Positions 1-17,460 of a stretch of 54,658 nucleotides of DNA are shown piece by piece. Each line of letters begins with the position of its first letter. The stretch's first letter is position 1. Origin of the DNA: Bacteroidales bacterium (GTDB lineage: Bacteria; Bacteroidota; Bacteroidia; Bacteroidales; WCHB1-69). The notes under the pieces were generated by a model that was given only the letters and a program-made list of their open reading frames with translations, was not told the DNA's origin and did no database searches. Made by a program: the position numbers and the translations under genes. The stretch lies in contig JAFPVR010000011.1 of assembly GCA_017395245.1 (NCBI GenBank), positions 1 through 54,658 on the forward strand, written 5' to 3'.

Positions 1-1053
1 TAGCAGGGAGAGCCAATTCCACATTTTCGAGCCATTATAATATGATTTATAGTAATCACTCGAATTGGAGAATCTTTCTGATTCCTTATCCTTGAAGTAT
101 GATTTATTATACCCCATAACAACCTCCCAGATATTTTGTGTAATCGGGAACTGTCCGATATAATATGTTGGCAAACTAACAAGATGTGCTGGATGTTCGT
201 TACTTTCTGCATCTTCAGTTTGTTCAGTTGTTGCTCCAATCATCATTTCACCACCCTCCACTCGAATCAAATTAAACTTTAGAACGCCTAAATCCACAGA
301 ATAGATGTCACCACTAATCATTGTCTTTTCGGGCCACTCTTGGTCTGGTTTGAAAGGCTTGCGTTCTTCCCATTCAATTTCAATTTCCTTATCTTCTTCA
401 AAATCGATATGCTCTTTGAGAATCTTTTGCTCTGCGGTGATAGCATTAACAGCCTTGAACCTATAATCTCCCTTCCGAGGAACGGGTAGATAATATGGTT
501 CATCCGACATACCTTCGAGGCTACATACCAATTTACCCTCCTTGAACACTTGACAGTTCTCGTTGGAATAAAATTTGAACACGGATGTGGCCTTATCCTG
601 GATACTAGGCTTTGAAAGGAGATACTCTTTCTCTATCAACTTATCGAGATATGCCTCAAAGAAAGAGAAGTTAAACTCTGGAGCGTTTTTCAGACTTAGT
701 TCCTTCAGCCTATCAGGGAAGAAATTCTGTGACGGCATCTGATAACCATTCAACAGGATGGGTATGATATTCTTTTTCTTCTCCAGTGCAAAGGCTATCT
801 CATGGCAGAACCAATCTTCTTTCTCCCAGTTCTCTTTCTTGCATCCGTCAAGCGAGCTTTCTTCCAGAATGACAATCACATCCTTGGCATTCTCAATGTA
901 ATTCAGCAACTGCACGTTGAAGTTGTCTCGCCCCATTTCTTCCAAATCGAAGAATGTGGAGTAGCCCCGTGTCGTCAGTCTGTAATACAGATTGTTTGCC
1001 GTTGGTAGGCTCTTCCGTTTATAGCTTATGAATATGTCGTATTTGTTCTCCAT
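1..1053 (-). CDS. TIR domain + FGE/SUMF1-like domain protein (3' part cut by window)
   Basis: Reading the minus strand from the ATG at 1053 gives 351 codons with no stop up to the window edge. Residues 1-~130 are a TIR fold: it opens KYDIFISYKRK, has DVIVILEESS near 58-67, and WFCHEIAFAL at 81-90, where E85 fits the catalytic glutamate of NADase TIRs. After a linker of about 120 residues, residues ~264 onward match the start of the formylglycine-generating-enzyme/sulfatase-modifying fold: VEGGEMMIGA, EHPAHLVSLPTYYIG, then PITQNIWEVVMG. TIR domains in bacterial immunity usually cleave NAD+ or make signalling nucleotides; FGE-like domains in such fusions are often ligand-binding rather than enzymatic (family knowledge). 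It starts 13 bases after the stop of the R-M-S fusion gene, so the two are probably co-transcribed. Whether the FGE core cysteines remain cannot be seen. Confidence 0.85.
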   Translation of the reverse strand, partial: MENKYDIFISYKRKSLPTANNLYYRLTTRGYSTFFDLEEMGRDNFNVQLLNYIENAKDVIVILEESSLDGCKKENWEKEDWFCHEIAFALEKKKNIIPILLNGYQMPSQNFFPDRLKELSLKNAPEFNFSFFEAYLDKLIEKEYLLSKPSIQDKATSVFKFYSNENCQVFKEGKLVCSLEGMSDEPYYLPVPRKGDYRFKAVNAITAEQKILKEHIDFEEDKEIEIEWEERKPFKPDQEWPEKTMISGDIYSVDLGVLKFNLIRVEGGEMMIGATTEQTEDAESNEHPAHLVSLPTYYIGQFPITQNIWEVVMGYNKSYFKDKESERFSNSSDYYKSYYNGSKMWNWLSLL

Positions 1054-1066: not shown

Positions 1067-4000
1067 TTATTTCGATTCTTTTCTTATCACACACTTCAAC
1101 ACACCGATAGTCCTGTAATCTGTATCGCTGTCCAGTTCGATTGTGTCATAGTCGTTGTTCAGCGGAATCAGCTCCACCTTGCTGTGCTGCCAGCCGTCTT
1201 CGGTTTGGTGTTTCTCGCTTTGATACTTTTTGATAGTGTACTTGCCGCCATAGTCGAGGTCTTTCTCGCTGCATTCGGTGAGAACGATTTCGCCATTACG
1301 CGAACCGGCCTTGTACCACTCGAACACACAGATGTCGCCATCCTTTATCTTGGGCTGCATGGAATTACCTTTGGCATGTACGGCGAAGTGACGTTTGGGG
1401 TCGGGTGTGAAGCCGTTGCCTGTGGCATCTACCCAGCCTTCCTCTTCAGGAACTTCACCTTCCTCGAAGTAACCACAGGCGGCACGAAGAGTGTAGAGCG
1501 GGACACAACCCTCGCGATACGTGGGAAGAACGATTATCTTGGTAGCTTCTTTCTCTGTCTCGTTTTCGGCATGAGTCAGTCCTGCTGCCTGTTCACCATC
1601 TTCAATGAGTTCTCGATACAAAACTGCCTTTTTGCGAGCTGGGGCTTCGTCACAAATTATCTTGAGAGATTCTATCTCGCTTTCAATTGTTCCAATTTTG
1701 TCAACAATAGATTTTTGTTCAGTTAATTGAGGAAGGGTTATAGAGAAACGTATAATATTCTCTTTTTTACCCCTTGGCATTTTCATACCCTTAATATCCT
1801 GCATTGCCCAATCAAAGAAAATCTGCCGTCTCATAGAGTAATATATGTATTTCGAATCACAGTTGGTCTTGGGACGAAATACGAGGACATCTGGTGAACA
1901 GCCGCCAGATTTGTCAGCATACCAAATCTTTTTTAGATATGGACGTATGTTTGAAACCAAAATATCGCCTTTATGGTATTCAATTATGGAATCTACATTT
2001 GGAACGCCTTCATAAGACACTGCTCCTCCAAAATTCTGTAGAAGATTGTCTGTGCTAATATATGTATCAGGATTAATCTTACTATAAGCGATTCTTTCCG
2101 TAGAATATGGGGCAATTTGCTCAAGGGTTGTTTTATCACCATCAACACCAGAAAGAATCATATCTATCTTTTCTTGCAACTCGGAAATTCTTTCTTCTGC
2201 CTTATGTGACTCGTCATCAATCTTCTGACATTCTGTTACAATCTTTTGTTGTTGAGTTATCGTTGGAAGAGGTATTTGAATATTTTTCAAATACTTAAAA
2301 TGCCTTTCATATTTTTCAGAGTTTTCTATCTTAATAGTGAGCAAAAAATGATATAGGAATTTTGTGAGAATCTCTTTTTCGTTAACCTTTATAAGTTGTG
2401 TACCATCTGCACCTCTGACAAACTTAAAATCGGCATATTTGAAAGTACACGAATGATCGCCAAAAACAATCAACGGCAAATCTGTTATCGGTTCATTAAT
2501 GTTTGTATAGCCCGAAATGAGATTATCCGCTTCCTGAGTAATAACAGGGAACTCTCCCTCTGACAATATTTCTTCTTTGCTGATTTTTGTCAATGAACCG
2601 TCAACATGTAATAACAATTGCTCCAACCGTTTTGTTGGATATCTATACTGAACCACTGCCTCCTTTTGTTCAACAAGAGTTCTGATAACAAGATTAAAAG
2701 TCGTTTTCCCAAAATCAATCAAGTCGGTAAGTCGAGCAATTTGCAAAAGAGCATTATTCTCCCCTACAAAAGGTTTTTCGTCAATAGCCTTTGCTGTCCC
2801 GAATGAGAATTTGTTACAACTGCCCGTAATATGTTTCCTCAGTGCGTATGAGAATTTCGAAACATCATTGTCATCGCCAGGATTATAAAGAGGCGTTTCA
2901 ATGTATTTGATGGAATTGATGGCTTGAACGATTTCAGTATCTTTATCGTCCTCGTCATCTGAAGTTTCGGTTTCCTGAACTTTACTTGTCAAGTACTTGA
3001 TGCCTTCATCACCCTTGCGGTTGCTCCAGTCATAACCCAAAAACTTGACCACCTCGGATTTATTGCTCTTATTATTGACCTTCTCAGGTGGGGACTGCAA
3101 AATGGCAACGTTATTGTTTTCCGTCTGAATATAGACATTAAGCTTTTTGCATTCAATGTCTTTTGCAAAGGCTACGAATTGTCTTTTATATTCAGCTTCC
3201 TCTAGTTGCTTGTAGTCATCACTCGACAAGAAAAGAGCAAACTGATTCTTATATTCTTTTGATTTTTCTTTTTGGCCTTCCCGATAGTAACTGGATTTTG
3301 CAAACCAGTCTTTTTGGATACTTTTGCTTATACTGCTCTTCTTGAAGTTAGAGGCATAGTCTTTGAAGACGTATGTTTCTTTTAGGTTGTCTCCAAGAAT
3401 ATTGTCCTGCATAAACGCGAAATACTCATCTTTGGGATAGCCCTGTTTCTGGACATAGGAATCAATTGAGCTGCTGGTTGTATATTGGGTGTAATCCTTC
3501 TTGTCCATAAAAGTGTGGAGCAACCCTTCCGAGTTTTTCTTTACTTTTTGGGCAAAAAGAATAACGGTGTTTGTTCCTGTCGAGCCAAATGTGCGACTGT
3601 TCATCACGGCGATTGCCAGGATGTTGAAGTTCGCGAAAATGATTTCACGGGTTTTGGTGTAGATATTCTCGTTGCTCAATAGAGAACTTGGAAGGACGAT
3701 GCCCATCAAACCGTCTTTCTTCAAAAAATGTTGGGCACGTTCTACGAAGAAACACTCAATGGACCTGTTCGTGGAATACGCTTTCTCTTCTACAGACTTT
3801 GCGAGTTCAAACTGGTCACGGTCTTTTTGCTCCATTGTATTCAGGAACCCTTTCACGCTATATGGCGGATTGGCAATAATACAATCAAATGATTCTTTGT
3901 CAAACCCTTGATAGCGTACATCCATCGTGTTGATATGGCTCAACGAGTCCTTGAAGACAATGCGAGAGTCCTGACAGCCATTAATGATTGTGGCGATCTT

Positions 4001-5512
4001 CGCGACCTGGCTCAACGTCTGACTTTTCTCTATTCCGTAAATCTTAGCCTTAGGGTAATGTTTTACGAACTCTGTTAGGAAATGTCCTGCGCCACAAGCA
4101 TAATCTAGAACTTTTACCTTGTCAGTATTTGGGAACTGAGGCAATGAGTTGATGATAAAGTTGACAATGGGAAGCGGAGTAAAGAATTGCCCTTCCGTTT
4201 GGTGTACGTTCTTAGAAAGGAGACCTTCAAACAGGTCGCCGAAAAAATGGTTTGTCTCGCTTGAACTCAGATTGATGTCCTGAATAAGGGCTGCAATCTT
4301 TATCAGGATCTGAAAGTTCATTTCAAATTCCTCACGATTCTCCACATCAATGAAGTTGAACTTCTTGATGTTGTAGAACTTCATTTCTTCAAACAGTTCC
4401 TTTATGCCTGCAAAAAGACCATTCTTCAAGGAACGATTAGTATCCTCAAAAATCTGCTTGATATCCTCCTCGTCTTTGTTCACCACCTCCACATTAAAGA
4501 GTTGCTGCTTTCCCAACTGGTAGAGTTTCAACAAGCGGTTGCAGTACTCCTTGGGTGTATCGCGGGCTATTCCTTTATAATAAAACTGAAGGTCATCCGG
4601 GTTGTTGAGTTCGTCGGTAATCTTGCATAGGAATAAATCTATGAGGATATAAAACGAATGTTCGAAATCGGTGATGGCATGATTTCTCAATATCGTTGCA
4701 AACTCATGGTAAATGGGGCGTATTTCAGCATGAGACAATCCTTTCAAATCATTGATTGTATATTTGAGCTTGCCAACAGAATAGGCCTCGATGTCATCTT
4801 CAAACAGGCCCTTGGTTTCGAATGACTTTCCGTATGTCTGATTCCACACGTCATAATACTTTCCCTGCGCATCCGCAAACGACTTGGCATTGTCAAGTTC
4901 ATTCAGACGTTTCTCATTATCCTTCAGCGTGATAATGTGATTTTTGAGAATGACATCTTTTTCATCGAAGTCTGCAGCAAAAAGAACAAGATTCTGGCAT
5001 AGCCCCATCACATTAACCAGCGGACCAAGGTAACTGAATAGTTGTCCACCATCTTTCTGCATCAAGTTCCACTCCTTGCTGAACTCGGCGCCATAGGTCT
5101 TGTTTTCGATCAGAACAAGAGGATTGTACTCTTTGTCAAACACAAGGATGTCGCCATAAGAGGGTTTGTTTACATGCCCGACTTTAAACGCAGGTTCAAA
5201 GACCAGATGTTTGGGCTCGTATCCCTTTTGTAGCAAAAGATGGACGCATACAAGACAGACAAAGTTCTCGTTCGCACTAAAGTTCAGCGTCGTGTCTCTG
5301 TGGATTACAAAGCCCTTTGCCGGCTTGTCTTTTAAAGGGAATTCGCCCTCCTTGAAAAGGGAATCGATAGGAGCATAGGTAATCTTCTGAGTATCGAAGT
5401 CTACTTCAATACTTGCGCCTTGCGGATATTCCCTTCTATATATGTTCCCCTTTTTCGAAAAACCGAAATCCGGATGCGTTAAAAGGGCGGCTAAATTATC
5501 TTTTGTAATCAT
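1067..5512 (-). CDS. Single-chain R-M-S restriction-modification enzyme fused to a C-terminal LexA/S24-type peptidase
   Basis: About 1,481 residues from the ATG at 5512 (a GTG three codons upstream is the alternative). Order: N-terminal PD-(D/E)XK nuclease of HsdR_N type (YGDILVFDKEYNPLVLIENK, near 120-138, giving D-x(n)-E-x-K); helical linker; N6-adenine methyltransferase of HsdM type (motif I DYACGAGHF near 470, motif IV NPPY near 548); an HsdS-like region from about 950 to 1310 with two target-recognition-like halves each ending in a coiled coil (PLPTITQQQKIV; TLPQLTEQKSIV); then an S24 peptidase domain over the last ~140 residues with Ser in GNSMQPKI (~1384) and Lys in YTIKKY (~1428/1429), the LexA/UmuD dyad pattern. 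No separate translocase is present, so it probably acts as a type IIG-like enzyme. The S24 domain suggests self-cleavage or DNA-damage control, which is inference. The gene is AT-rich relative to core genes, suggesting transfer. No stop or frameshift separates the domains. Confidence 0.88.
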   Translation of the reverse strand: MITKDNLAALLTHPDFGFSKKGNIYRREYPQGASIEVDFDTQKITYAPIDSLFKEGEFPLKDKPAKGFVIHRDTTLNFSANENFVCLVCVHLLLQKGYEPKHLVFEPAFKVGHVNKPSYGDILVFDKEYNPLVLIENKTYGAEFSKEWNLMQKDGGQLFSYLGPLVNVMGLCQNLVLFAADFDEKDVILKNHIITLKDNEKRLNELDNAKSFADAQGKYYDVWNQTYGKSFETKGLFEDDIEAYSVGKLKYTINDLKGLSHAEIRPIYHEFATILRNHAITDFEHSFYILIDLFLCKITDELNNPDDLQFYYKGIARDTPKEYCNRLLKLYQLGKQQLFNVEVVNKDEEDIKQIFEDTNRSLKNGLFAGIKELFEEMKFYNIKKFNFIDVENREEFEMNFQILIKIAALIQDINLSSSETNHFFGDLFEGLLSKNVHQTEGQFFTPLPIVNFIINSLPQFPNTDKVKVLDYACGAGHFLTEFVKHYPKAKIYGIEKSQTLSQVAKIATIINGCQDSRIVFKDSLSHINTMDVRYQGFDKESFDCIIANPPYSVKGFLNTMEQKDRDQFELAKSVEEKAYSTNRSIECFFVERAQHFLKKDGLMGIVLPSSLLSNENIYTKTREIIFANFNILAIAVMNSRTFGSTGTNTVILFAQKVKKNSEGLLHTFMDKKDYTQYTTSSSIDSYVQKQGYPKDEYFAFMQDNILGDNLKETYVFKDYASNFKKSSISKSIQKDWFAKSSYYREGQKEKSKEYKNQFALFLSSDDYKQLEEAEYKRQFVAFAKDIECKKLNVYIQTENNNVAILQSPPEKVNNKSNKSEVVKFLGYDWSNRKGDEGIKYLTSKVQETETSDDEDDKDTEIVQAINSIKYIETPLYNPGDDNDVSKFSYALRKHITGSCNKFSFGTAKAIDEKPFVGENNALLQIARLTDLIDFGKTTFNLVIRTLVEQKEAVVQYRYPTKRLEQLLLHVDGSLTKISKEEILSEGEFPVITQEADNLISGYTNINEPITDLPLIVFGDHSCTFKYADFKFVRGADGTQLIKVNEKEILTKFLYHFLLTIKIENSEKYERHFKYLKNIQIPLPTITQQQKIVTECQKIDDESHKAEERISELQEKIDMILSGVDGDKTTLEQIAPYSTERIAYSKINPDTYISTDNLLQNFGGAVSYEGVPNVDSIIEYHKGDILVSNIRPYLKKIWYADKSGGCSPDVLVFRPKTNCDSKYIYYSMRRQIFFDWAMQDIKGMKMPRGKKENIIRFSITLPQLTEQKSIVDKIGTIESEIESLKIICDEAPARKKAVLYRELIEDGEQAAGLTHAENETEKEATKIIVLPTYREGCVPLYTLRAACGYFEEGEVPEEEGWVDATGNGFTPDPKRHFAVHAKGNSMQPKIKDGDICVFEWYKAGSRNGEIVLTECSEKDLDYGGKYTIKKYQSEKHQTEDGWQHSKVELIPLNNDYDTIELDSDTDYRTIGVLKCVIRKESK

Positions 5513-5527
5513 AATATACACTCTATA

Positions 5528-5638
5528 CTATTCGACACTTATATTGAATGGCGGCCTAAGGAGGGGGTAAAGGAACGCCTTCACCACACTCCGTATGGCA
5601 GTCCGCTGATGTTCCGAGGTTTCAAGTTTGAATATCAT
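5528..5638 (-). pseudogene. 36-residue stub resembling the N-terminus of a restriction Res/helicase subunit
   Basis: A short reading frame begins MIFKLETSEHQRTAI and continues RSVVKAF before an unrelated tail and a TAG. The opening resembles the first residues of type III Res and related DEAD/DEAH helicases, where a lysine-rich strand is followed by a Q-motif-like helix ('..HQ..AI..VV..F'). Everything after that helix is missing. It sits 14 bases downstream of the 60-residue ORF and 15 bases upstream of the R-M-S fusion, all on the same strand. I read it as the surviving 5' end of a res-like gene deleted when the present R-M-S gene arrived. The match rests on about 20 residues, so chance similarity is possible. 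Confidence 0.4.
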
Positions 5639-5652: not shown

Positions 5653-5835
5653 TTAGTCATTTTCTTTTTGCATCAATCGCTTGGTTTCTTTCATCTCCTG
5701 TTGTATCAGGCGCATACGTTCTCGCAGTTGTTCCTGTGCGGTCAGAGCATCCATGATGTAGATGTTGCCGTAGGCGGCAACTCCAATGAACCGGTTCATG
5801 CGAAGCTTGTCCTTATTGTTTTGTTTCTTGCTCAT
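5653..5835 (-). CDS. Small hypothetical protein, 60 residues, helical
   Basis: I place the start at ATG 5835 (MSKKQNNKDKLRMNRFIG); an in-frame ATG at 5880 would overlap the upstream nuclease gene. It lies 13 bases after the stop of the DUF1016 nuclease, as expected in an operon. The second half (AQEQLRERMRLIQQEMKETK) is strongly charged and looks like one amphipathic helix or coiled coil; a short hydrophobic strand (FIGVAAYGNIYIM) precedes it. No family recognised. Its position between two restriction-type genes suggests an accessory subunit or regulator of the cluster. Confidence 0.5.
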   Translation of the reverse strand: MSKKQNNKDKLRMNRFIGVAAYGNIYIMDALTAQEQLRERMRLIQQEMKETKRLMQKEND

Positions 5836-5848
5836 CTTTCGGTTGTTA

Positions 5849-7048
5849 CTATTCGTTATCTGTTTCATTCTGTTTTTCACCCTCCTTCATCTCCCTAAAC
5901 TGCTCTTCGGTGATATTCTCAAGCATATACTTGCGGATGTCGTCCTCGGAGGGCAACTGCAGGCGGTATTTGCTGACGAAGAGGTTTTGCGAGAGACCTT
6001 CTGTTGCATACTGTACGGTGGTCTCGCCATAGTCGGTGCAAAGTAGCAGACCGATGGGCGGGTTGTCGTCCTCCTGCATCACCTCGTGCTTGAAGTAGTT
6101 CATGTAGAGGTTCAGCTGAGAGGCATACTCGTGGCGGAAACGGTCAATCTTCAGGTCGATGATGACGTGACACTTCAGGATGCGGTGGTAGAAGATGAGG
6201 TCAGCCTTGTAGTAGTCCTGATCAATGAGGATGCGCTTCTGACGATACTCGAAGCAGAACCCACGGCCCATCTCCAAGAGAAAACGCTGCAGGTTGTTTA
6301 GAATGGCCGTCTCCAACTTGGTCTCGGTGTAGACATCTTGCTGCTCCATACCCAGAAACTCCAATGTGACGGGGTTGTGCAGAATGTCACGAGGAGTCAC
6401 CTGCTGAGCATTCTTGGCTGTTAGACGTTGCAGGGCTTTCTTGTCCTTCGACAATCCCATGCGTTCATAATATTGCGAGGACACCTGACGGTCGAGTTCT
6501 GTAAAAGTCCAACAACCACGTATCGTTTCCTGCTCGTAGAATGCTCTTTTCAACGGATTGTCAATGCTTGTCATGTATAATAGGCAAGAATAGTTGAGCC
6601 TATTAAAAAGTCTTTCAGGTGGCGTAGCCCATTCTTCCAATTTGGCGGACGGCATCCGCCATTTTTCATCACCTTGATTCTCTGCCGTTTGCAATTTGGC
6701 GGATGGCAACCGCCAAATTGGGAACGCATCCGACTCCAATAGTCGTGGTTGGTGTGTTTTAACGTATCTTGCAACCTCAACGCCCAATATAGGATAAATA
6801 AGGTACAATTGCCTGAACTCGCGAAGTCGTCTTGGCTCAAATCCTTTACGGTTAATCCTTTCAGCCAAGCGGTTAATGAGCTTCTCGCCATACTTGGCAC
6901 GGTCTTCGCCGTTTTGTTCAAACTCCACAATATAATATCCCACCAACCAATTGCGTGCCGTCAACGAGAGGTTTACGGCATGTGCGGCTTGCGCCTGCAA
7001 TGCATCCTGGATGAGGTTGATGCGTCCTACTAACGATTCAAAGTCCAT
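5849..7048 (-). CDS. DUF1016/YhcG-type PD-(D/E)XK nuclease
   Basis: 399 residues, close to the usual family length. The N-terminal half is the DUF1016_N helical domain (ARNWLVGYYIVEFEQNG, then RLREFRQLYLIYP). The C-terminal half is the PD-(D/E)XK nuclease domain: QKRILIDQDYYKADLIFYHR followed by KCHVIIDLKIDRF, giving D-x(n)-D-x-K active-site spacing. Family members are often found beside type I R-M genes and in defence islands. Residues ~110-140 hold a duplicated WR-L/M-PSAKL peptide encoded by two DNA palindromes inserted in the linker between the domains (separate entry). It is probably the first gene of the operon that runs to the TIR-FGE gene. A weak TAnnTTTG-like element (TAATATTG on the minus strand) lies about 35 bases upstream of the start. 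Confidence 0.88.
   Translation of the reverse strand: MDFESLVGRINLIQDALQAQAAHAVNLSLTARNWLVGYYIVEFEQNGEDRAKYGEKLINRLAERINRKGFEPRRLREFRQLYLIYPILGVEVARYVKTHQPRLLESDAFPIWRLPSAKLQTAENQGDEKWRMPSAKLEEWATPPERLFNRLNYSCLLYMTSIDNPLKRAFYEQETIRGCWTFTELDRQVSSQYYERMGLSKDKKALQRLTAKNAQQVTPRDILHNPVTLEFLGMEQQDVYTETKLETAILNNLQRFLLEMGRGFCFEYRQKRILIDQDYYKADLIFYHRILKCHVIIDLKIDRFRHEYASQLNLYMNYFKHEVMQEDDNPPIGLLLCTDYGETTVQYATEGLSQNLFVSKYRLQLPSEDDIRKYMLENITEEQFREMKEGEKQNETDNE
6643..6720. repeat. Two in-frame palindromes inside the DUF1016 nuclease gene
   Basis: Two related inverted repeats about 50 bases apart. The second (6692-6720) has perfect 11-base arms (CAATTTGGCGG / CCGCCAAATTG) around a 7-base loop; the first (arms 6643-6649 and 6655-6661) has 7-base arms TGGCGGA / TCCGCCA. 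Both keep the reading frame and both encode W-R-(L/M)-P-S-A-K-L. The core TTGGCGGA also occurs in the two hairpins at 13246-13386, so all four may belong to one repeat family. Confidence 0.75.
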
Positions 7049-7169
7049 TCTCTTTTCTCTGTTTTATAAATTCGTATGCAATATTACGAAAAAAAAACTT
7101 ACACTACTTCATTTCTGATATAAAACTTCATTATTCGAAGGGTTTTACACACGATACAATATAATCACT

Positions 7170-7295
7170 TCAACCCGCCATAGCTCTTGGCAGCCGGAAG
7201 CGCTCAATCTGCCCCTGCAGTCGCTTCGCCCACTTCTCGTCCTCGCCTTTGTAGGAGATGAAAGCGTAATATTTATATGTGGTTAGCAGTTCCAT
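7170..7295 (-). pseudogene. Truncated TIR domain (N-terminal fragment, 41 residues)
   Basis: The minus-strand frame from ATG 7295 reads YKYYAFISYKGEDEKWAKRL then IERFRLP before a stop. This is the first strand and helix of a TIR domain (box 1 'FISY' followed by '..D..WA..L...IE.YRLP'). The rest of the domain is absent. It sits upstream of the DUF1016 operon and next to two other damaged signalling genes, so I take it as a decayed relic. A translated 41-residue peptide cannot be excluded. Confidence 0.6.
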
Positions 7296-7341
7296 CGCCT
7301 TATAAATAATTTTAGTTGATCACCGCCGCAGCTACCTCTTA

Positions 7342-7833
7342 CTAATTATATTTCTTTCCTCTCATGTTCAATTGATTTACAACAACCTCTATCTGCTCAA
7401 AATCTTTATTTTTTGTCTCTTCATTCAACAAGGTGAAAGGTACAATTTTATCATGAGAGAATAGTGTCTTGCCTATATTCATGGGGGCAGGTTCCCATCC
7501 ATTGAGCAGTTTCTCAACATTCCATCGATTATGTTCAACTTCCGCAAGGCATTCTTTCTCTTTCTTAGTTAACAATATAGGAGTGTGGGCTTTGCCTATA
7601 CTTCTCATCATCGAAAGCTTAGAGATTGCACCGTCATAATCCACTAAACAGGGATGGTGCTTGAGGGTGTCGTCGCGCTCGGGGCCGTAGGTCCAGCCGT
7701 CGTTCATGCGGCCAGCAGCCCAAATGTCGTGCACGTTGCGGGCCAACTCTTCCGTAAGCATCCGCAATTCCTCTGACAACTCCACATTGGAGGTGTCAAT
7801 AAGGTGTGGGGTGTAAGGGTTCTTGTTTGCCAT
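7342..7833 (-). CDS. RyR-domain protein with two RyR-like modules, the first shortened
   Basis: 163 residues from ATG 7833, chosen because a TATTTTTG promoter lies 23 bases upstream; the longer frame to 7920 would run through that promoter and the terminator. Residues 7-65 match the bacterial RyR module (YTPHLIDTSNVELSEEL, then GWTYGPERDD and HHPCLV) but lack its usual closing segment. Residues 97-150 form a second module (VEHNRWNVEKLLNGW, then IVPFTLLNEETKNKDF). RyR modules in Bacteroidota are found near NAD/nucleotide-signalling and conflict genes and are thought to bind ligands; the substrate is unknown. The TIR fragment downstream and A1S_2505-like fragment upstream fit that context. The hybrid first module suggests a past deletion between tandem copies. 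Confidence 0.7.
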   Translation of the reverse strand: MANKNPYTPHLIDTSNVELSEELRMLTEELARNVHDIWAAGRMNDGWTYGPERDDTLKHHPCLVDYDGAISKLSMMRSIGKAHTPILLTKKEKECLAEVEHNRWNVEKLLNGWEPAPMNIGKTLFSHDKIVPFTLLNEETKNKDFEQIEVVVNQLNMRGKKYN

Positions 7834-7855
7834 TTCTACTGTATTTTCGACCCTG

Positions 7856-7863
7856 CAAAAATA
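7856..7863 (-). promoter_or_regulatory. Bacteroidota -7 element (TATTTTTG) for the RyR gene
   Basis: Minus-strand TATTTTTG, matching TAnnTTTG, 23 bases before the chosen ATG at 7833. Confidence 0.6.
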
Positions 7864-7895
7864 AAAAAATGTTTCGATGTCACAATCCCTTAAAG

Positions 7896-7929
7896 AAAAA
7901 AGTCTTGTGCCGAAACACAAGACTTTTTT
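7896..7929. terminator. Bidirectional intrinsic terminator
   Basis: Near-perfect 14-base arms (A6 GTCTTGTG / CACAAGAC T6) around a 6-base loop, giving a U-tract in either direction. It separates the A1S_2505-like pseudogene from the RyR gene on the minus strand. Confidence 0.85.
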
Positions 7930-8015
7930 GTGGAATATTAACCCGCCAACTCGGATCCGTCGTAAGACACAAAAGTGACAACCTAAATCAGCAAATCACA
8001 GTTCAGGCTCACGGT

Positions 8016-8273
8016 TTACCTATCATCAATATCCCTGGGGTATTCTCCGGCATATACCCTGTCCATAACCATATAGCTATTCTGGATGGGCTTAGTAGGA
8101 GATAAAATCTCCACAAAAGCCTGTGGCAAAATGATATTTTCTATGTCAATGGCATCTTGGAACAGTGGAGCAATCTCCCCAACCTTGAATCCTGCAAGGT
8201 TGCTGCCAAACACAAATATCTCATTCGCCTTCAGTTCCGTTATTCTCTCTGGTGTATATTCTCTGTTGTACAT
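8016..8273 (-). pseudogene. A1S_2505-like ORF with an internal deletion, plus an unrelated tail
   Basis: 85 residues. It opens ITELKANEIFVFGSNLAG, the N-terminal signature of the A1S_2505/phage-associated family, and jumps directly to FKVGEIAPLFQDAIDIENII, which belongs near that family's C-terminus (usually after 'GCGIAGF'). The middle, about 90-100 residues, is missing; the join falls at 'AG', present at both sites, so recombination across a short identity is likely. The last ~25 residues (NSYMVMDRVYAGEYPRD) look like the beginning of a second protein, perhaps a phosphatase-like fragment found beside ADP-ribosylglycohydrolases; that part is weak. Probably not functional. The family assignment is from memory of its motifs. 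Confidence 0.55.
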
Positions 8274-8326
8274 AGCTTTCTCATTTTTAAAATTCTAATC
8301 TAAATCCTTTTTGCTTCATATTGGAA

Positions 8327-8354
8327 GTTTCAGGTTTCAAGTTTCAGGTTCTGG
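8327..8354. repeat. Period-7 repeat (GTTTCAR units)
   Basis: Four 7-base units, GTTTCAG / GTTTCAA / GTTTCAG / GTTCTGG, in the spacer between rseC and the A1S_2505-like relic. The reverse complement (TTGAAAC, CTGAAAC) is the same family as the arrays at 41181 and 46111. Confidence 0.75.
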
Positions 8355-8390
8355 TATATACCCTAAGGTCTGGAATACGTTAGGAAATAA

Positions 8391-8822
8391 TCAGTTCGTC
8401 CCAATTTTCCGTATCCCGAACTCAATCCCTTTTTCCACCCCCTTGCTGAACGATTTCAGCACGAGGTAATAGACGACAACCCCCAGCACCGCAATCCCGA
8501 CGCTCAGCAACTCCTTGCCGGTGAGCGCGTAACAACCGAAAAGGAAGACGAGCAGGACGAGGAGCGGCAGCAAATATGCCAGAACCACAGCTCTGTTGCC
8601 GGCAGAGGTTTCCAACAGCAGCTCCACAGTCTCCCCCACCCTGTATTCCTCACGGCGGGTGTTCTTCACAGTGATGACCTCCTTCCGGCGGTCGGAAGGG
8701 ATGCAAATGCTCTTGGCATGGCAGCCACTGCATGCGGAACTCACGATGACTTCCACGCTGATTTCGTCGCCATCAATGGCGCGGACGATGCCTTCTCTAC
8801 AGATGTTGGTTTCTTCGTTCAT
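8391..8822 (-). CDS. rseC: RseC/MucC family membrane protein
   Basis: 143 residues. The N-terminal part has the RseC pattern: an EGIVRAIDGDEISVEV strand followed by a cysteine cluster CSGCHAKSIC, then a basic positively charged stretch. Two membrane helices follow (VVLAYLLPLLVLLVFLFGCY and VGIAVLGVVVYYLVL) before a charged tail. RseC proteins act with electron-transport (Rnf) complexes in reducing iron-sulphur sensors such as SoxR, or in envelope stress control. In Bacteroidales the gene usually stands near rnf genes; here it follows radA with a repeat in between, and no rnf gene is seen. Symbol is by family. Confidence 0.8.
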   Translation of the reverse strand: MNEETNICREGIVRAIDGDEISVEVIVSSACSGCHAKSICIPSDRRKEVITVKNTRREEYRVGETVELLLETSAGNRAVVLAYLLPLLVLLVFLFGCYALTGKELLSVGIAVLGVVVYYLVLKSFSKGVEKGIEFGIRKIGTN

Positions 8823-8850
8823 GTTTGTTCTTTTGTTCTTGTCTCATCGA

Positions 8851-8926
8851 CCCGGGGTGGCGGCCTACGGCCTTACCCCGGGCTACCGAGCTCTTGCCCC
8901 TTAACGGGGCTGCTCAAGGAATAATA
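8851..8926. repeat. Two-hairpin composite repeat overlapping the 3' end of radA
   Basis: First hairpin: arms CCCGGGGT (8851-8858) and ACCCCGGG (8875-8882). Second: GCCCC (8896-8900) and GGGGC (8906-8910). Tail: CTGCTCAAGGAATAAT. The same tail follows paired hairpins at 38632-38671 and 40087-40217, and inverted at 18001-18079. The radA stop codon falls in the loop of the second hairpin. Confidence 0.75.
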
Positions 8927-10286
8927 ACCGTGCCATCTCCTCCACCTTGGTGATGGGGATAATCTTCAGTTTGTAGTCCGACGGGCGGATGCCTTTGAGG
9001 TTGTATTTGGAGACGAACATGCGGGTGAAGCCTAACTTGTCGGCCTCGGCGATGCGCTGGGCGATGCGCGTCACGGGGCGCACCTCGCCGCTCAGGCCCA
9101 TCTCGCCCGCAAAGCAGGTCTTGTTGTCCAAGGCGATGTCGGTGACCGACGACAGGATGGCGGCCACAATGGCCACGTTTATGGCGGGATCCTCCACCCG
9201 CAGACCGCCCGCAATGTTCAGGAAGACATCCTTGGCACCGAGCTTGAACTGACAACGCTTCTCCAACACGGCTAACAGCATGTTCATGCGGCGGATGTCG
9301 TAGCCCGTGGCGGAACGCTGCGGCGTACCATAGACCGCACTGCTGACCAACGCCTGCGTCTCAATCATCATCGGACGGTTGCCCTCCAGCACGCAGGCGA
9401 TGGCGTTGCCGCTGTAGTCTTCATCGTGCTGGGAAACCAAGATTTCCGACGGGTTCTGCACCTCGCGCAAGCCGTCTTGCAGCATCTCGAAAATACCCAA
9501 CTCGGAGGTGGAGCCGAACCGGTTCTTAATGCAGCGCACCATGCGGTAGCCATAATGCTGGTCACCTTCGAACTGCAACACCGTATCCACGATATGCTCC
9601 AACAGCTTGGGACCGGCCAGCGAGCCGTCCTTGGTGATGTGGCCGATGAGGAACACGGGACAGGCCGTACGTTTGGCAAAGTGCTGAAACTCGGCCGCAC
9701 ACTCCTTGAGCTGCGAAATCGAACCAGCCGCAGATTCCAACAAGTCGCTCTGCATCGTTTGGATGGAATCGACAATGAGAATATCGGGATTAAGGGAATC
9801 TATATGCTTGAAAATCTGTTGTGTGCTGGTTTCCGTAAGGACATAGCAGTGTGGTGCGGGGTCGCTGGAGAGGCGGGCGGCACGCATTTTGAGCTGCGCT
9901 TCGCTCTCCTCGCCGGAGACGTAGAGTACCTTCTGGTCACGCAGTTTCAGCGCCATCTGGAGCAGCAGGGTGGATTTGCCGATGCCCGGCTCGCCGCCCA
10001 ACAGGACAATGCTGCCGCGCACGATGCCGCCGCCCAGCACACGGTCAAACTCCGCGTATCCAGTCGCGGTGCGCGGGAATTTCGTGAGTTCTATGTCGTC
10101 GATGACCTTGGGGCTGCTTTGCGTCAGAACGGGCGAAAAACGGCCTTTCTGGACCGTTGCTGACTCCTGGAGGACAACCTCCTCCTCAAAGGTGTTCCAC
10201 TCGTTGCATTCGGGACACCTACCCAGCCACTTCGCCGACTGCGCCCCGCAGTTCTTGCAGTAGTACATCGATTTACTCTTCGCCAT
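8901..10286 (-). CDS. radA: DNA repair protein RadA/Sms
   Basis: 461 residues from ATG 10286 (MAKSKSMYYCKNC); the upstream ATG at 10316 would overlap the promoter. RadA is a RecA-like ATPase that promotes branch migration of recombination intermediates. Order: C4 zinc finger (CKNCGAQSAKWLGRCPEC); Walker A GGEPGIGKST; Walker B region DILIVDSIQT; the RadA signature KNRFG; then a Lon-protease-like C-terminal domain (NIAGGLRVEDPA, GEVRP). The last residues (LLFLEQPR) are encoded by the composite repeat, so the native C-terminus has been replaced or extended. A TATTTTTG element lies 20 bases upstream, and rseC follows on the same strand. Confidence 0.97.
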   Translation of the reverse strand: MAKSKSMYYCKNCGAQSAKWLGRCPECNEWNTFEEEVVLQESATVQKGRFSPVLTQSSPKVIDDIELTKFPRTATGYAEFDRVLGGGIVRGSIVLLGGEPGIGKSTLLLQMALKLRDQKVLYVSGEESEAQLKMRAARLSSDPAPHCYVLTETSTQQIFKHIDSLNPDILIVDSIQTMQSDLLESAAGSISQLKECAAEFQHFAKRTACPVFLIGHITKDGSLAGPKLLEHIVDTVLQFEGDQHYGYRMVRCIKNRFGSTSELGIFEMLQDGLREVQNPSEILVSQHDEDYSGNAIACVLEGNRPMMIETQALVSSAVYGTPQRSATGYDIRRMNMLLAVLEKRCQFKLGAKDVFLNIAGGLRVEDPAINVAIVAAILSSVTDIALDNKTCFAGEMGLSGEVRPVTRIAQRIAEADKLGFTRMFVSKYNLKGIRPSDYKLKIIPITKVEEMARLLFLEQPR

Positions 10287-10369: not shown

Positions 10370-10789
10370 TTAGTCGTCGAGACCGATATAGTTGCCGTTT
10401 TTGTCAAAGCGAAGCTCAAGGTTGTTATTCATATCCACCTCATAGCGTCTGTCGTCGTATTTGATTTTGGTGGCGTAGTTGGCGGGGAAATTGGCGGACA
10501 CATACTGTGCGATATTGGTGGGAAGAACGCCTACGGGCAGCGGGTTCAGACCGCAGTCCACCTTCGTCCATTGACCGCTATGGCTGAACTCCAACGACGT
10601 GCCGTCATGCAAAATGACATCGTAACCGAGGCCGTCGCGCTGCACGGAGAGCACATTGACCCCGTTGAAGTTGGCCGCGACAAACTGTTTCGCCTGGGCA
10701 GGCAGTTTGTCGGGGGAAATCATTCTGTCGCACGATGCGAACGCGCCCAACATAAAAACGCCCATCAAAATGGCAATGATTTTCTTCAT
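10370..10789 (-). CDS. PepSY-like exported lipoprotein
   Basis: 139 residues. A signal peptide ends in a lipobox (LGAFASC, Cys20), so the protein is probably lipid-anchored. The mature part has two copies of the PepSY-like (former DUF2874) motif: LPAQAKQFVAANFNGVNVLS with a following EFSHSGQWTKVDC, and IAQYVSANFPANYATKIKYD with YEVDMNNNLELRFDKNGNY. These domains are common in Bacteroidota periplasmic proteins; the function is unknown. The next gene upstream, 10880-11296, is a paralogue with the same layout, so this is a tandem duplication. Confidence 0.85.
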   Translation of the reverse strand: MKKIIAILMGVFMLGAFASCDRMISPDKLPAQAKQFVAANFNGVNVLSVQRDGLGYDVILHDGTSLEFSHSGQWTKVDCGLNPLPVGVLPTNIAQYVSANFPANYATKIKYDDRRYEVDMNNNLELRFDKNGNYIGLDD

Positions 10790-10834
10790 AATTGAAAATG
10801 TTTGGTTTTAGGAATCGTAGGGGCACAAAAAATC

Positions 10835-10861
10835 GTAGAGACGCAAATGTTGCGTCTCTAC
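10835..10861. repeat. GTAGAGACG palindrome
   Basis: Perfect 12-base arms with a 3-base loop, beginning GTAGAGACGCAA. It lies between the two PepSY-like genes. Related copies: 35232, 35284, 37694 and 47185. Confidence 0.85.
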
Positions 10862-10879
10862 GTGTGTCACTACCGGATA

Positions 10880-11296
10880 TTAATCATCGTAAGTCAGGAA
10901 ATTGCCGTTCTTGTCGAATTTCAGTTCCATGTCATTGTTCAATTCGACGTCATAACCACCATATTTCTTGTCGATTTTAACAATGGTGTTATTTGGGAAT
11001 TTAGTTTTCACATACTTGGTGATGGCGGGAGGCACGATGGTGGCGGGAACGGCGGAACCCGGGCATTTCACCTCTTTCCAATCGCCTTGAAGAGTGAATT
11101 CCACCTTGGTGCCGTTGGCAAGATAGACTTCATAATCGTCGTCCACTGTGGCGGAAAGAAATTCAACACCGCTGAAATGTTTAGTGATGAACTGTTGCGC
11201 CTTCTGGGGAAGCTGCGCAAAGGTGACAGGTCTGTCCGTGACCGCATATACATTGATGGCGGCCACACTCAACAATAAAACAAGTAACTTTTTCAT
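10880..11296 (-). CDS. PepSY-like secreted protein
   Basis: 138 residues. An N-terminal signal peptide (MKKLLVLLLSVAAINVYA) lacks a lipobox cysteine, unlike its paralogue at 10370-10789, so it is probably soluble in the periplasm. Two PepSY-like modules follow: LPQKAQQFITKHFSGVEFLS ... EFTLQGDWKEVKC and ITKYVKTKFPNNTIVKIDKK ... DVELNNDMELKFDKNGNF. A TACTTTTG promoter lies 38 bases upstream. It is likely the first gene of a two-gene unit ending at the terminator at 10315-10341. Role unknown. Confidence 0.85.
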   Translation of the reverse strand: MKKLLVLLLSVAAINVYAVTDRPVTFAQLPQKAQQFITKHFSGVEFLSATVDDDYEVYLANGTKVEFTLQGDWKEVKCPGSAVPATIVPPAITKYVKTKFPNNTIVKIDKKYGGYDVELNNDMELKFDKNGNFLTYDD

Positions 11297-11333
11297 CTTA
11301 TCAGGGTTTAATTATGCATACAAAACAGGACGG

Positions 11334-11341
11334 CAAAAGTA
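11334..11341 (-). promoter_or_regulatory. -7 element (TACTTTTG) for the PepSY-like genes
   Basis: Minus-strand TAnnTTTG match 38 bases before the ATG at 11296. Confidence 0.6.
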
Positions 11342-11428
11342 CAAAAAAGTTTAACAGGGACGACAAAGAATCAAGTCTCCCAAAAAAACGCATCACTTTA
11401 TATTTGGACTCGAGGGAAGCGCAGCTTG

Positions 11429-13009
11429 TCATCCCACCACCCACTCCCCGACGGTCATCGTCTCCCGCTCGAAAGCCACACCGACTTTGACGACCTTGTG
11501 GCCTTCGGTTTCGTAAGGCTGAGCGTAACCTTTGGTGTTGATTTGGTCGAGGGCCTCCTGCGCCGTGCCGTTCGCCTTCAACTCGAAGACGTAGGTGGTG
11601 TCAGGCATCTCCACCACGATGTCGGTGCGGCCGCCAGCACACTTGACCTGCGTACGTACATAGACGTTGAGCATCGAGAAAATCAGGTACAGCGACCATT
11701 CGTAGAACCCTTCGTAGTTCTTCACCTCCGCCAACTTCTTTTGGAAACCTTCCACGTAGGGCAGTCCGGCGAAGTAGGCCTTCATCTCCTGCATGGCGAG
11801 GTCGATGTCGTTCTTTTTCAGGACGCGCCAGAACTTCAGGGCGAAGCCATCCTGCACGTAACTCCCGTCCAGCCCGATGTAGGAGGGAATCAGTCCGTCG
11901 ATGAATCCCGTGCGAACCTCGTTGTTCGGGATGGACAGAATATAGGAGTTGGACTCGCGGTCGTACTCCTTGATGGTGAGGTAGCCGGTTTGGTAGAGCA
12001 GCGGCAGGGCGGTGTTCATGGCCTCGGGGGGACGGTCGAAAGCGGTCGCCGAGGCTTCGATGCGCTCTATCGTGGTGATGTCGGTGCGGAAGTGCTGCAT
12101 CTGTCTGATGAGGAAGGTCGGGGTGCCGCTCTCGAACCAGTAGTTGGCGATTTTGCGTTGGTTGAAACATTTGAGCAGACTGAACGGGTTGTAGATGTCA
12201 GGCGACACTTCAGAAAAGCGGTAGCCGTCGTACTGTTTTTTCAGCTTGTCGTGCATTTCCTCGGGCGTGCATTCGTATACTTCCGCCAGCATCGCGATGT
12301 CGGGGGCCATGTCGGTGGCCAGTTCCTCTTCCGTGATGCCGCAGATGGCCGCGTACTTGGCGTCCATCGAGATGTTGGTGAGATTGTTGATGGTGGAGAA
12401 GATGCTCAGCTGCGAGAACTTGGTGATGCCGGTGATGAAGCAGAAGCGGATCAAAGCCTCGTTCGCCTTAAGCTGGATGAAGAACTCCTGCATCACGTTG
12501 CGGAACCCGCCCAACAAATCCGACAGGTGGAGCTTGTCCAACAGCGGCGCGTCGTATTCGTCGATGATGACGACCACTTGCTTGCCAGTTTTCTCGTATG
12601 CGCGGTGAATGAGGCCGCTGAACATTTTTCCCGGGGAAGTCTCCGATTCGTCCTTTCCATATACCTCGCACATTGGCTTCAATATCCACATCAGGGTTTC
12701 TCGCAATGCCTCAATCGAACTTTCCGCTTTGGCTACGCTCAAATCCACATGGATGACCGGATATTGTTCCCACTCCGTCTCCAAATCCATAATCTTGAGT
12801 CCTTCGAAGAGTTCTTTCTGTCCTTTGAAATAGGAGTCCAGCGTGGTGGTCAGCAGCGATTTGCCGAACCTGCGGGGGCGGCTGAGGAAGACGTATTTCA
12901 TGCGGGTCATTTCCCACATCAAGTCTGTTTTGTCGATATAGATGTAGTTCCCTTTCCGGATTTCCGAAAAGGTCTGGATTCCCACGGGGTATTTGCGGAC
13001 GTTGTTCAT
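11429..13009 (-). CDS. AAA-ATPase-like / PD-(D/E)XK nuclease protein (DUF1703 type)
   Basis: 526 residues from ATG 13009 (MNNVRKYPVGIQTFSEIRK), which lies 21 bases after a TACCTTTG promoter; the longer frame to 13156 would start upstream of it. N-terminal AAA-like domain: 'YIDKT' sensor strand, Walker A SRPRRFGKSLL (~40), Walker B VVIIDEYDAPL. C-terminal PD-(D/E)XK fold of the DUF1703 family: GRTDIVVEMPDTTYVFELKA, giving D-x(n)-E-x-K. These proteins are multicopy in Bacteroidales genomes and resemble mobile or defence ATPases; the role is unproven. It is divergent from the helicase operon, with both promoters in the 456-base spacer. Confidence 0.9.
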   Translation of the reverse strand: MNNVRKYPVGIQTFSEIRKGNYIYIDKTDLMWEMTRMKYVFLSRPRRFGKSLLTTTLDSYFKGQKELFEGLKIMDLETEWEQYPVIHVDLSVAKAESSIEALRETLMWILKPMCEVYGKDESETSPGKMFSGLIHRAYEKTGKQVVVIIDEYDAPLLDKLHLSDLLGGFRNVMQEFFIQLKANEALIRFCFITGITKFSQLSIFSTINNLTNISMDAKYAAICGITEEELATDMAPDIAMLAEVYECTPEEMHDKLKKQYDGYRFSEVSPDIYNPFSLLKCFNQRKIANYWFESGTPTFLIRQMQHFRTDITTIERIEASATAFDRPPEAMNTALPLLYQTGYLTIKEYDRESNSYILSIPNNEVRTGFIDGLIPSYIGLDGSYVQDGFALKFWRVLKKNDIDLAMQEMKAYFAGLPYVEGFQKKLAEVKNYEGFYEWSLYLIFSMLNVYVRTQVKCAGGRTDIVVEMPDTTYVFELKANGTAQEALDQINTKGYAQPYETEGHKVVKVGVAFERETMTVGEWVVG

Positions 13010-13029
13010 GACGGACGGTTTTTTCGCGG

Positions 13030-13037
13030 CAAAGGTA
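13030..13037 (-). promoter_or_regulatory. -7 element (TACCTTTG) for the AAA/PD-(D/E)XK gene
   Basis: Minus-strand TAnnTTTG match 21 bases before the ATG at 13009. Confidence 0.6.
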
Positions 13038-13116
13038 CAAATTTTTCGATTATCGATTCGCAGGGCGAAAAAACTGCAAAAACCGAGATGTTTTCTGCAT
13101 CTATCTATATTTTTCT

Positions 13117-13124
13117 TACTTTTG
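13117..13124 (+). promoter_or_regulatory. -7 element (TACTTTTG) for the helicase island leader
   Basis: The only plus-strand TAnnTTTG match seen in the spacer. It lies about 340 bases before the helicase ATG, leaving a long leader that contains the two inverted hairpins. Confidence 0.5.
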
Positions 13125-13245
13125 CCGCACTTTTTGTTGCAAGTCGCGACAAGCAAGAGATAATTGTTGTTAATAAAAGGTATTAAAACAGACTAATAAA
13201 GTTAGATAGTATAAAGTAAAATAGTATATCACAGAGCTTTGCGCT

Positions 13246-13416
13246 CTTATTCTCGAACTGAAAATCCGCCAAATTTTTAAAAGACGAGAGAATAAGAAAG
13301 CGAAAGGTTCGCGCCTCTGGGCGTGAATTGTTTCGTGCTTATTGATCGTCTTAGGTTCTTGGCGGAGCCGCAGTTCTCAATAAGCAAACAAAACGGGATG
13401 ATCTCACGCCTTTTTT
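13246..13416 (+). ncRNA. Candidate structured leader RNA: two inverted homologous hairpins and a U-tract
   Basis: Hairpin 1: CTTATTCTC (13246-13254) pairs with GAGAATAAG (13288-13296). Hairpin 2: TGCTTATTGA (13336-13345) pairs with TCAATAAGCA (13377-13386). Hairpin 2 on the minus strand carries the same loop as hairpin 1 on the plus strand: GAACTG, four variable bases, TCCGCCAA, six or seven bases, AAGACGA. The stems differ but stay paired. In one transcript the loops are complementary (13255-13260 with 13371-13376; 13265-13272 with 13359-13366). An outer stem, GGCGTGA (13320-13326) with TCACGCC (13404-13410), is followed by six T, like a terminator or attenuator. It ends about 50 bases before the helicase ATG. 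It could instead be an inverted repeat pair with no RNA function. Confidence 0.45.
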
Positions 13417-13465
13417 GCATACTTATCTGGAATAACGGGTGGTAAAGTTCGCAATCAGACGGACG

Positions 13466-16741: not shown

Positions 16742-17420
16742 TATTCTAAATTACCCTAAAAGCACCATCGTTGGCCGTGTCGTGCCGAAAACGATGTTCT
16801 ACAAGTTTATGGAGGTGAACCTGCGTATGAAATCGCGCTTCGTCAATGACGTGGTGAACATCATTTGGCTATACAAGTTGTCGGCCTCCTCCCTCAATGT
16901 CACGGACACGGAGGAAATGAAGGAAATAGAGGTGTTTGTTGTGAACCTGAAACAGCCGGATTGCCCGACGGATTTGTTCAGCTTCATCGACACAAACATG
17001 CCGCACCATATCGTCTTTGTCCTCATGCACGACAACAGTGCGATGTTGCTCATCAACTACAAGGATTGGGCAGACGACACCCATACGAAATTCCGCATAC
17101 GTCAGGCCTTTGCTTCACCTTGGATGCCGATTGCCGACCTTGAACTGATTGTGCAAGGTCAGTCTTTACCTCGCATTTATGACAACTTCGTGGCGCAGGT
17201 GTCCGGCATCGGGGAACACAAGGCAGGCAGTATGGCCGAAATTGTGGAGCTAAAGAAACAGATTGCTGCCGCCGAAGCAGATCTGCAAAGTCTTGAGAAA
17301 CGGATGCGCAAAGAGCCGCAGTTAGACAAGCAGCTGCAGATGAACAAACAGGTGAAAACCAAACGATTGGCTATGGCTGAATTAAAGAAAAGATTGGAGA
17401 TAATCAGAACTAAGAACTAA
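16734..17420 (+). CDS. DUF4391 domain protein
   Basis: 228 residues if started at GTG 16734, chosen because a strong Shine-Dalgarno (GGAAGGAGG, 16720-16728) precedes it; a TTG at 16710 is in frame but has no such site. The start overlaps the helicase stop by 8 bases, so translation is probably coupled. The first ~160 residues match DUF4391 (RVVPKTMFYKFMEVNLRMK; NIIWLYKLSASSLNV; HIVFVLMHDN). The C-terminal ~60 residues (AEIVELKKQIAAAEADLQSL...) form a coiled coil that could mediate assembly. DUF4391 genes are regularly seen next to this helicase type and type III R-M genes; the biochemical role is unknown. Confidence 0.85.
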   Translation: MDNILNYPKSTIVGRVVPKTMFYKFMEVNLRMKSRFVNDVVNIIWLYKLSASSLNVTDTEEMKEIEVFVVNLKQPDCPTDLFSFIDTNMPHHIVFVLMHDNSAMLLINYKDWADDTHTKFRIRQAFASPWMPIADLELIVQGQSLPRIYDNFVAQVSGIGEHKAGSMAEIVELKKQIAAAEADLQSLEKRMRKEPQLDKQLQMNKQVKTKRLAMAELKKRLEIIRTKN

Positions 17421-17460
17421 GAGAAAAGGGAGGAGAAGTAACGACAATGGAATTCAATAA

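Follow-up and report, generated by a model that had tools for sequence, protein, structure and literature searches.

The window analysed here, a 54,658-nucleotide stretch of contig JAFPVR010000011.1 in assembly GCA_017395245.1 from a gut Bacteroidales bacterium, encodes on its minus strand (positions 1067-5512, ATG start) a protein of 1481 residues which, judged by its profile and motif matches, is a complete type IIG restriction-methylation enzyme plus an added S24 auto-peptidase module of the UmuD/LexA type. By the same kind of comparison the module is a portable one, attached to restriction proteins of types I to IV. We tentatively put forward the reading that RecA-triggered self-cleavage of the module alters restriction, most likely by removing the enzyme and so bringing about restriction alleviation.

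A type IIG enzyme with an added tail

The gene is a single frame without internal stops, and Pfam and PADLOC matches agree with the first-pass annotation, made from the letters of the DNA, that this frame joins a restriction-modification-specificity (R-M-S) enzyme to an S24 domain. An alternative GTG start at 5521 would give 1484 residues (1067-5521, minus strand), the ATG lying three codons further in; residue numbers are counted from the ATG, and those given in GTG numbering are 3 higher. The PADLOC REase_MTase_IIG model PDLC03624 covers residues 1-1302 almost end to end with 795 bits (residues 4-1305 in GTG numbering). At the N-terminus, an HsdR_N-like PD-(D/E)XK nuclease region (5075-5239, like all features of this gene on the minus strand) is indicated by a GD...ENK motif (5099-5155) and by a Pfam HSDR_N_2 match to residues 95-149 (GTG numbering) which, at 20.5 bits, lies below the cut-off of 25. 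The N6-adenine methyltransferase domain (N6_Mtase; 3518-4252, residues 424-668 in GTG numbering) scores 110.6 bits and bears the motifs DYACGAGHF and NPPY. Two stretches of Pfam Methylase_S (53.2 bits) correspond to the first target-recognition domain (2198-2590) and to the second (1658-2125, Specificity_I/Methylase_S), the latter being matched also by PADLOC PDLC03135 at residues 1133-1288 (GTG numbering). Nuclease, methyltransferase and recognition domains are in this way united in one chain, as in type IIG enzymes, the Pfam nuclease match itself being sub-threshold.

Relatives were collected from genome contigs in which 84,980 species are represented by one genome each; a scan with five aligned modules as query gave 73 loci. 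The same fusion, whose absence from relatives would have pointed to an artefact in the first-pass annotation, is present in one open reading frame (ORF) at five further Bacteroidales/Prevotella loci (L072, L074, L075, L077 and L081). These orthologues, of 1493-1525 residues from stop to stop, align with the window enzyme over residues 2-1306 (GTG numbering), and their bodies are 74-86% identical to it in protein sequence. The GD...ENK motif is intact in all six proteins, as are both methylase motifs. That assembly or gene prediction had artificially fused two genes might be suspected from the position of the gene near the start of its contig. Such an error is, however, exceedingly improbable given a frame free of internal stops and, above all, the same fusion at five other loci, of which L077, from Prevotella aff. 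ruminicola Tc2-24, lies on a contig 1,008,584 bases long.

The S24 tail appears to be an addition after a complete enzyme, since the three tail-less IIG homologues that reach the C-terminus (L067, L005 and L068) stop at the residue equivalent to 1302; the other IIG homologues in this comparison are cut by the locus end or not aligned that far. By genome, the identities of the tail-less homologues are 58% (G055), 33% (G174) and 31% (G047).

The S24 module and its predicted cleavage site

A linker of about 35 residues separates residue 1302 from the module (1070-1504), in which Pfam Peptidase_S24 (PF00717) matches residues 1357-1474 (GTG numbering) with 45.9 bits against a cut-off of 23.3. A PF00717 search of the bacterium's own genome recovers the same domain with an E-value of 3.1e-13. 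Searched singly against PDB sequences the window module gives a weak match (E 0.076); a profile of 49 modules finds UmuD (8gmt) at E 1.9e-8 and, as the best LexA chain, one at E 1.9e-6. A chance resemblance to S24 was ruled out by the Pfam score, the own-genome search and the module-profile matches together.

The catalytic residues are Ser1384 of GNSM (codon 1361-1363) and Lys1428, the first Lys of YTIKKY (codon 1229-1231). Their spacing of 44 residues falls within the 44-45 initially given for this pair. A Cys-Gly or Ala-Gly dipeptide ahead of the domain, proposed at the outset as something to look for, was found as Cys1346-Gly1347 (1472-1477). This predicted self-cleavage dipeptide, of UmuD type, lies 38 residues ahead of Ser1384, and the profile alignment places it on the CG of the QCG of UmuD.

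Conservation was assessed over 92 module proteins, comprising 73 from the genome-contig and viral-contig scans, the window protein and 18 from whole-genome searches; near-copies (90 different among the 91 in the tree below) and ORFs cut by a locus end are included. Left out were a 116-residue partial (L143), two sequences with a contig edge or broken frame (L058 and L059) and L028, L030, L032, L064 and L066. Although the 92 modules range down to about 30% identity with that of the window, Gly follows the predicted cut in all of them, and Cys or Ala precedes it in all. The catalytic Ser is likewise invariant and Lys is present in 91, the exception (L082) being frame-broken before the Lys position; the loss of this pair among homologues, which would have spoken against the assignment, is thus not seen. 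Spacings are 35-40 residues from P1, the residue before the cut, to Ser and 42-47 from Ser to Lys. P1 is Cys in 69 modules and Ala in 23, a share of Cys that is biased upward by the PLY..AAC motif contained in the search pattern of the genome-contig scan. A fairer sample is given by 26 modules from protein searches of whole genomes without a motif pattern, made up of 18 matches from the phylum-sample tail search described below and eight S24-only rows from another protein search; it includes the window's module and also L058, L059, L028, L030, L032, L064 and L066, some of which are contigs already among the 73 loci. All 26 have [AC]G, P1 being Ala in 20 and Cys in six. The preceding residue, P2, is Ala in each of the 92 modules, compared with just 6 of the 25 free-standing S24 proteins scored from this order (site taken at the usual distance; 29 loci given, four of them without a row to score).

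The profile match, the Ser-Lys dyad and the Ala-Gly or Cys-Gly dipeptide upstream of Ser are the features of the S24 family, and on these sequence grounds the module is very probably a working self-cleaving peptidase. It does not belong to a LexA-type repressor: a helix-turn-helix (HTH) domain is absent among the Pfam matches and the N-terminal part is a restriction-methylation enzyme. The idea of an S24 switch in this protein had been coupled to release of the recognition module by cleavage. The switch half of that idea agrees with a module bearing cleavage residues on a complete R-M-S enzyme. Release of the recognition module was rejected on the position of the dipeptide: since this lies about 44 residues past the end of the enzyme proper at residue 1302, a cut there would free the S24 tail alone.

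The module on other restriction proteins

Related architectures had been suspected to exist, and the 92 proteins gathered show the module to be shared by many restriction proteins. Classes were assigned by clustering the N-terminal parts; 20 representatives and the window protein were scanned with Pfam, the other 71 being placed by BLAST clustering alone. Pfam S24 is above its cut-off in 19 of the 20 representatives, L062 reaching 23.2 against 23.3. The largest class is that of Schlafen-group-3 helicases (39 proteins), which we take to be DUF2075, followed by type I HsdR (19, including L086, which Pfam identifies as an EcoEI-type HsdR despite its clustering with the type IV group). Type IIG enzymes, with the window's, number six, as do PLD-helicase-DUF3427 proteins (type IV in PADLOC). 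Type III Res and HNH enzymes contribute four each; among the latter L097 is above the HNH cut-off and L129 is sub-threshold for HNH but matches a PADLOC type II enzyme with 256 bits. There are two HsdS (L071 and L126), two AlwI and two helicases with a sub-threshold T5orf172 match. Single cases are one NOV_C protein, one Sau3AI/MutH protein (equivalog over its cut-off) and one with a sub-threshold TnsA-like part and sub-threshold ResIII. Five proteins, in two groups, have no assigned kind; setting these aside, there is no lone methyltransferase class among the 92.

Where restriction and modification are separate proteins, the module sits on the restriction partner, as in HsdR of L073, Res of L083 and AlwI of L101. 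It is absent from the HsdM and HsdS beside that HsdR, from the Mod beside that Res and from the D12 methylase beside that AlwI, as well as from the C5 methylase piece beside the Sau3AI-like enzyme of L116 and the N6 methylase beside the HsdS of L071. A module-profile scan of 3986 ORFs of at least 80 residues at 74 loci matched the 74 chosen ORFs and two others, the second fragment of the frame-broken L082 gene and a 1128-residue ORF in L111. The latter (5726-9109) is a second S24-module protein, the locus also encoding a Schlafen-type one. In two proteins of about 750 residues without an assigned kind (L087 8549-10846 and L098 2164-4410) the module stands mid-protein, followed by more than 100 residues; L087 has no Pfam match besides S24, and neither has a PADLOC match. 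The presence of relatives of the module on so many unlike restriction enzymes suggests a general tie between restriction and the state of the cell's own DNA.

Exchange and distribution of the module

Sequence comparisons indicate that the module moves between restriction proteins. The window and L071 share 575 bp of DNA at 86.6% identity (window 1594 to 1021), a block that takes in linker, module and stop codon and extends 33 bases into the TIR-like gene downstream, even though the protein of L071 is of the HsdS class, not IIG. Compared with the five IIG orthologues, the DNA of the window gene is 82-89% identical in the body and 72-77% in the module stretch. A tree of 91 modules, from which the frame-broken L082 was excluded, has 22 changes among 14 partner classes, the least possible being 13, and places the window and L071 modules together as a pair (97/95). 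Among the six IIG modules four changes are required, and the starred branches force four. As a single clade for these six is not rejected by the approximately unbiased (AU) test (p 0.095), the claim of exchange rests mainly on the DNA mosaic and the unlike carrier enzymes.

The recognition domains of the fused IIG enzymes have, on comparison of aligned blocks, been exchanged too. Nuclease and methylase blocks are 69-100% identical among these enzymes and recognition-domain blocks 9-44%, except for the first domain of L077 (95 and 79%). In a 120-column block of the first recognition domain the window is 18-22% identical to four of the five orthologues and 95% to L077.

With a threshold of E up to 1e-6, the tail was found in one of 40 genomes of the genus, namely the bacterium's own, and in 18 of 395 genomes of a phylum sample, the own genome included; among these 18 the window holds the only ORF seen to be a IIG enzyme. 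A tblastn search with the 148-residue tail matched no phage record; its single plasmid match lies on a 1.8-Mb Halomonas replicon, at a place where no feature is annotated. The viral-contig collection holds one clear case, L070, and nine weaker ones. In L070 (4800-8441) an HsdR-class protein, so placed by clustering, carries the module on a 58-kb contig that may be a phage-borne copy or a misplaced contig. The full window protein has no relative in the viral contigs, and the best 20 of 432 plasmid records cover at most 52% of it. A phage or plasmid origin of the module was rejected in view of the absence of the tail from phage records, the one plasmid record and the one clear viral contig.

Proposed mechanism and its alternatives

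In the mechanism that we favour, RecA filaments on single-stranded DNA, whether from damage, repair or phage replication, would trigger the self-cut at Cys1346-Gly1347 and so shed the 135-residue S24 tail. The product would be the natural tail-less enzyme plus linker, with a new C-terminus of Arg-Ala-Ala-Cys (Ala-Ala in many relatives). This end may act as a ClpX signal leading to removal of the restriction protein, like the N-terminal piece of cut LexA; alternatively, the enzyme might be switched off by loss of an S24-mediated dimer. Either would give a built-in restriction alleviation that spares the damaged chromosome with its unmethylated sites, and modification would stay active where it is carried by a separate, module-free protein. 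The RecA filament is the probable trigger of cleavage. We regard it as evenly balanced whether cleavage in the end turns restriction off. That direction is favoured on two grounds: the module sits on restriction partners of ordinary type I-III systems and is absent from the adjacent methylases that were scanned, and the sequence that a cut would leave at the C-terminus is almost invariant. Comparable protease steps are reported for LexA and EcoKI: cut LexA exposes ClpX signals, its N-terminal piece being destroyed by ClpXP (PMC10584840), and ClpXP eliminates the HsdR of EcoKI during restriction alleviation (PMC4231737; PMC11109961).

Several points weigh against removal of the enzyme by a RecA-triggered cut. 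Cys at P1 in the window's subgroup makes the predicted new end Ala-Ala-Cys, not Ala-Ala, and known ClpX tags end in Ala-Ala. The conserved P2 Ala could be simple ancestry, and L059, the broken gene outside the 92, has Thr there. In a type IIG enzyme restriction and modification are one chain, so that both would be lost; similarly, the two HsdS proteins (L071 and L126) carry the module, and modification, too, depends on HsdS. Alleviation also leaves some carriers of the module unexplained, namely type IV enzymes and Schlafen helicases, which are not known to have a partner methylase. Self-cleavage, RecA binding, RecA dependence and the direction of the effect are all inferred. Moreover, accounts of E. 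coli restriction alleviation in PMC11109961 and PMC4231737 state that it is not an SOS function, and IrvR of Streptococcus mutans, a LexA-like S24 protein, is described in a passage of PMC7101444 as an exception to the RecA rule.

The opposite direction of control, in which the tail restrains the enzyme, by inactivation or by sequestering it as a dimer, until a RecA-triggered cut frees it, strikes us as unlikely while having real points in its favour. Restriction or suicide would then be armed by phage replication or damage, much as UmuD becomes active once cleaved. Residues 1-1346, the part that a cut would leave, nearly equal the natural tail-less IIG enzymes, which are presumably active; the P1 Cys is as in UmuD; and on Schlafen helicases and type IV enzymes arming upon phage replication makes sense. 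However, the module is present also on ordinary type II enzymes (AlwI, Sau3AI-like), which must act at DNA entry, and arming a nuclease during damage would presumably endanger a chromosome with unmethylated repair tracts.

Two further explanations do without RecA or without cleavage. The module could be a maturation timer, a slow, RecA-free self-cut that delays restriction by freshly made or acquired enzyme and gives the methylase time to protect a new host cell. Its presence on the restriction partner and absence from the neighbouring methylases scanned would fit, as would its occurrence on genes with a mosaic history and the behaviour of IrvR, reported in part of PMC7101444 to stand outside the RecA rule. 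Nevertheless we consider a timer distinctly improbable: the module is carried also by enzymes with no methylase partner (type IV, Schlafen), and section 13 of PMC8565304 gives RecA-mediated cleavage as a common feature of SOS-like S24 regulators. Somewhat less credible again is a non-proteolytic use, in which the S24 fold would serve only for dimerisation or docking and its catalytic residues would be relics. The S24 domain of LexA is indeed a dimerisation domain, as noted in the LexA account of PMC10584840, but relics would be expected to lose the residues that these modules keep (Gly in 92, Ser in 92 and Lys in 91 of 92), even in modules of about 30% identity.

Should enzyme removal by self-cleavage prove correct, it would bear on the old question of how a damaged and partly unmethylated chromosome is spared by the cell's own restriction enzymes; the conserved self-cleaving tail that the restriction partner carries would be a direct handle on it. 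RecA filaments would act directly on defence enzymes and not on a transcription factor, forming a general post-translational damage switch. Bacteroidales, reported in PMC8565304 to be without the SOS repressors of its phylum, would gain a route from RecA filaments to phage defence. The broadest proposition is that a single exchangeable tail, RecA-responsive and self-cleaving, serves as a damage switch on many restriction enzymes of types I-IV in Bacteroidota and in some further phyla, and does so in an order thought to be without a LexA-type repressor; its support and difficulties seem to us about equal.

Neighbourhood and genome setting

The own genome encodes RecA and a protein with a ClpX-type zinc finger. 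At E up to 0.001 it has two S24 proteins, the window enzyme and a 143-residue UmuD-like protein. Both groups of Bacteroidetes SOS regulators are reported absent from Bacteroidales in section 16 of PMC8565304, and an S24-RecA axis in this order may act on enzymes instead of a repressor.

Downstream of the fused gene, and open at the contig start, lies the gene of a TIR-like protein (1-1053, minus strand), matched at residues 6-102 by Thoeris ThcB4 in PADLOC (E 7.4e-7; 28.3 bits against a cut-off of 220). A TIR gene (TIR_2) also follows the HsdS-S24 gene of L071. The TIR-like protein is at most a candidate part of the system; its first bases lie in the block common to L071. The upstream gene, likewise taken as a neighbour only, encodes a YhcG/DUF1016 PDDEXK nuclease identified by Pfam (5849-7048, minus strand), and L081 has a YhcG gene after its fused enzyme. 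A 36-residue upstream frame (5528-5638) was discarded as a possible gene remnant, having no matches among the ORFs of the 74 loci.

In three of the five orthologues a 216-residue protein precedes the fused enzyme (L074 5291-5941, L077 5282-5932 and L081 5206-5856); the L077 copy is a T5orf172 GIY-YIG protein and a possible partner. The fused enzyme of L077 is adjoined by a gene group (10455-16992) with a 1141-residue SbcC/Rad50-type ATPase, a putative Wadjet system. Elsewhere in the window, an AAA-ATPase-like/PDDEXK_9 protein is encoded at 11429-13156, its family being common in gut Bacteroidales. A second defence cassette (13439-23102) consists of an SNF2-type helicase (HKD+Snf2, C3a139 in PADLOC), a 236-residue protein without a PADLOC match, a type III methylase (18107-20020) and a type III Res (19986-23102). 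At 23531-33469, on the minus strand, lies an ORF of 3312 residues with, by eye, many repeated domains.

Comparison with known systems

No description of S24 tails on restriction enzymes was found among the best matches in the open-licence literature, as judged by titles and the starts of abstracts, and neither S24 nor LexA occurs in a long 2025 review of restriction-modification or in two eLife papers on related systems. Both component families are known; it is their regular combination for which that literature gave no description, and database annotations may already name such proteins.

The closest relative by structure-database match is UmuD, the S24 subunit of a translesion polymerase, which is the best PDB match of the module profile, with its Cys-Gly aligned and its S24 motifs matched. 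UmuD is, however, a small free-standing protein, whereas the window module is the C-terminal tail of a 1481-residue restriction enzyme. LexA and the non-canonical LexA of Bacteroidetes, as presented in sections of PMC8565304, have, like the window protein, an S24 C-terminal domain behind a functional N-terminal part. LexA also shares the Ala-Gly type of site, the Ser-Lys dyad and the profile match already given, but in the window protein the N-terminal part is a nuclease-methylase in place of an HTH. The same sections report the Bacteroidetes LexA-like regulators to be absent from Bacteroidales, the order in which the window protein occurs. With type IIG enzymes, as modelled by PDLC03624, the likeness extends over residues 1-1302 (nuclease, N6 methylase and two recognition domains); the window protein continues into the S24 module, which neither the model nor the tail-less homologues reach. 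Finally, in alleviation of EcoKI by ClpXP, as treated in parts of PMC4231737 and PMC11109961, the outcome is the one proposed here, restriction being removed, and modification spared, when unmodified sites are present in host DNA. There, a ClpX degron in HsdR was sought and not found (PMC4231737) and the process is described as not an SOS one, whereas in the window protein a dedicated self-cleaving tail would itself make the signal.

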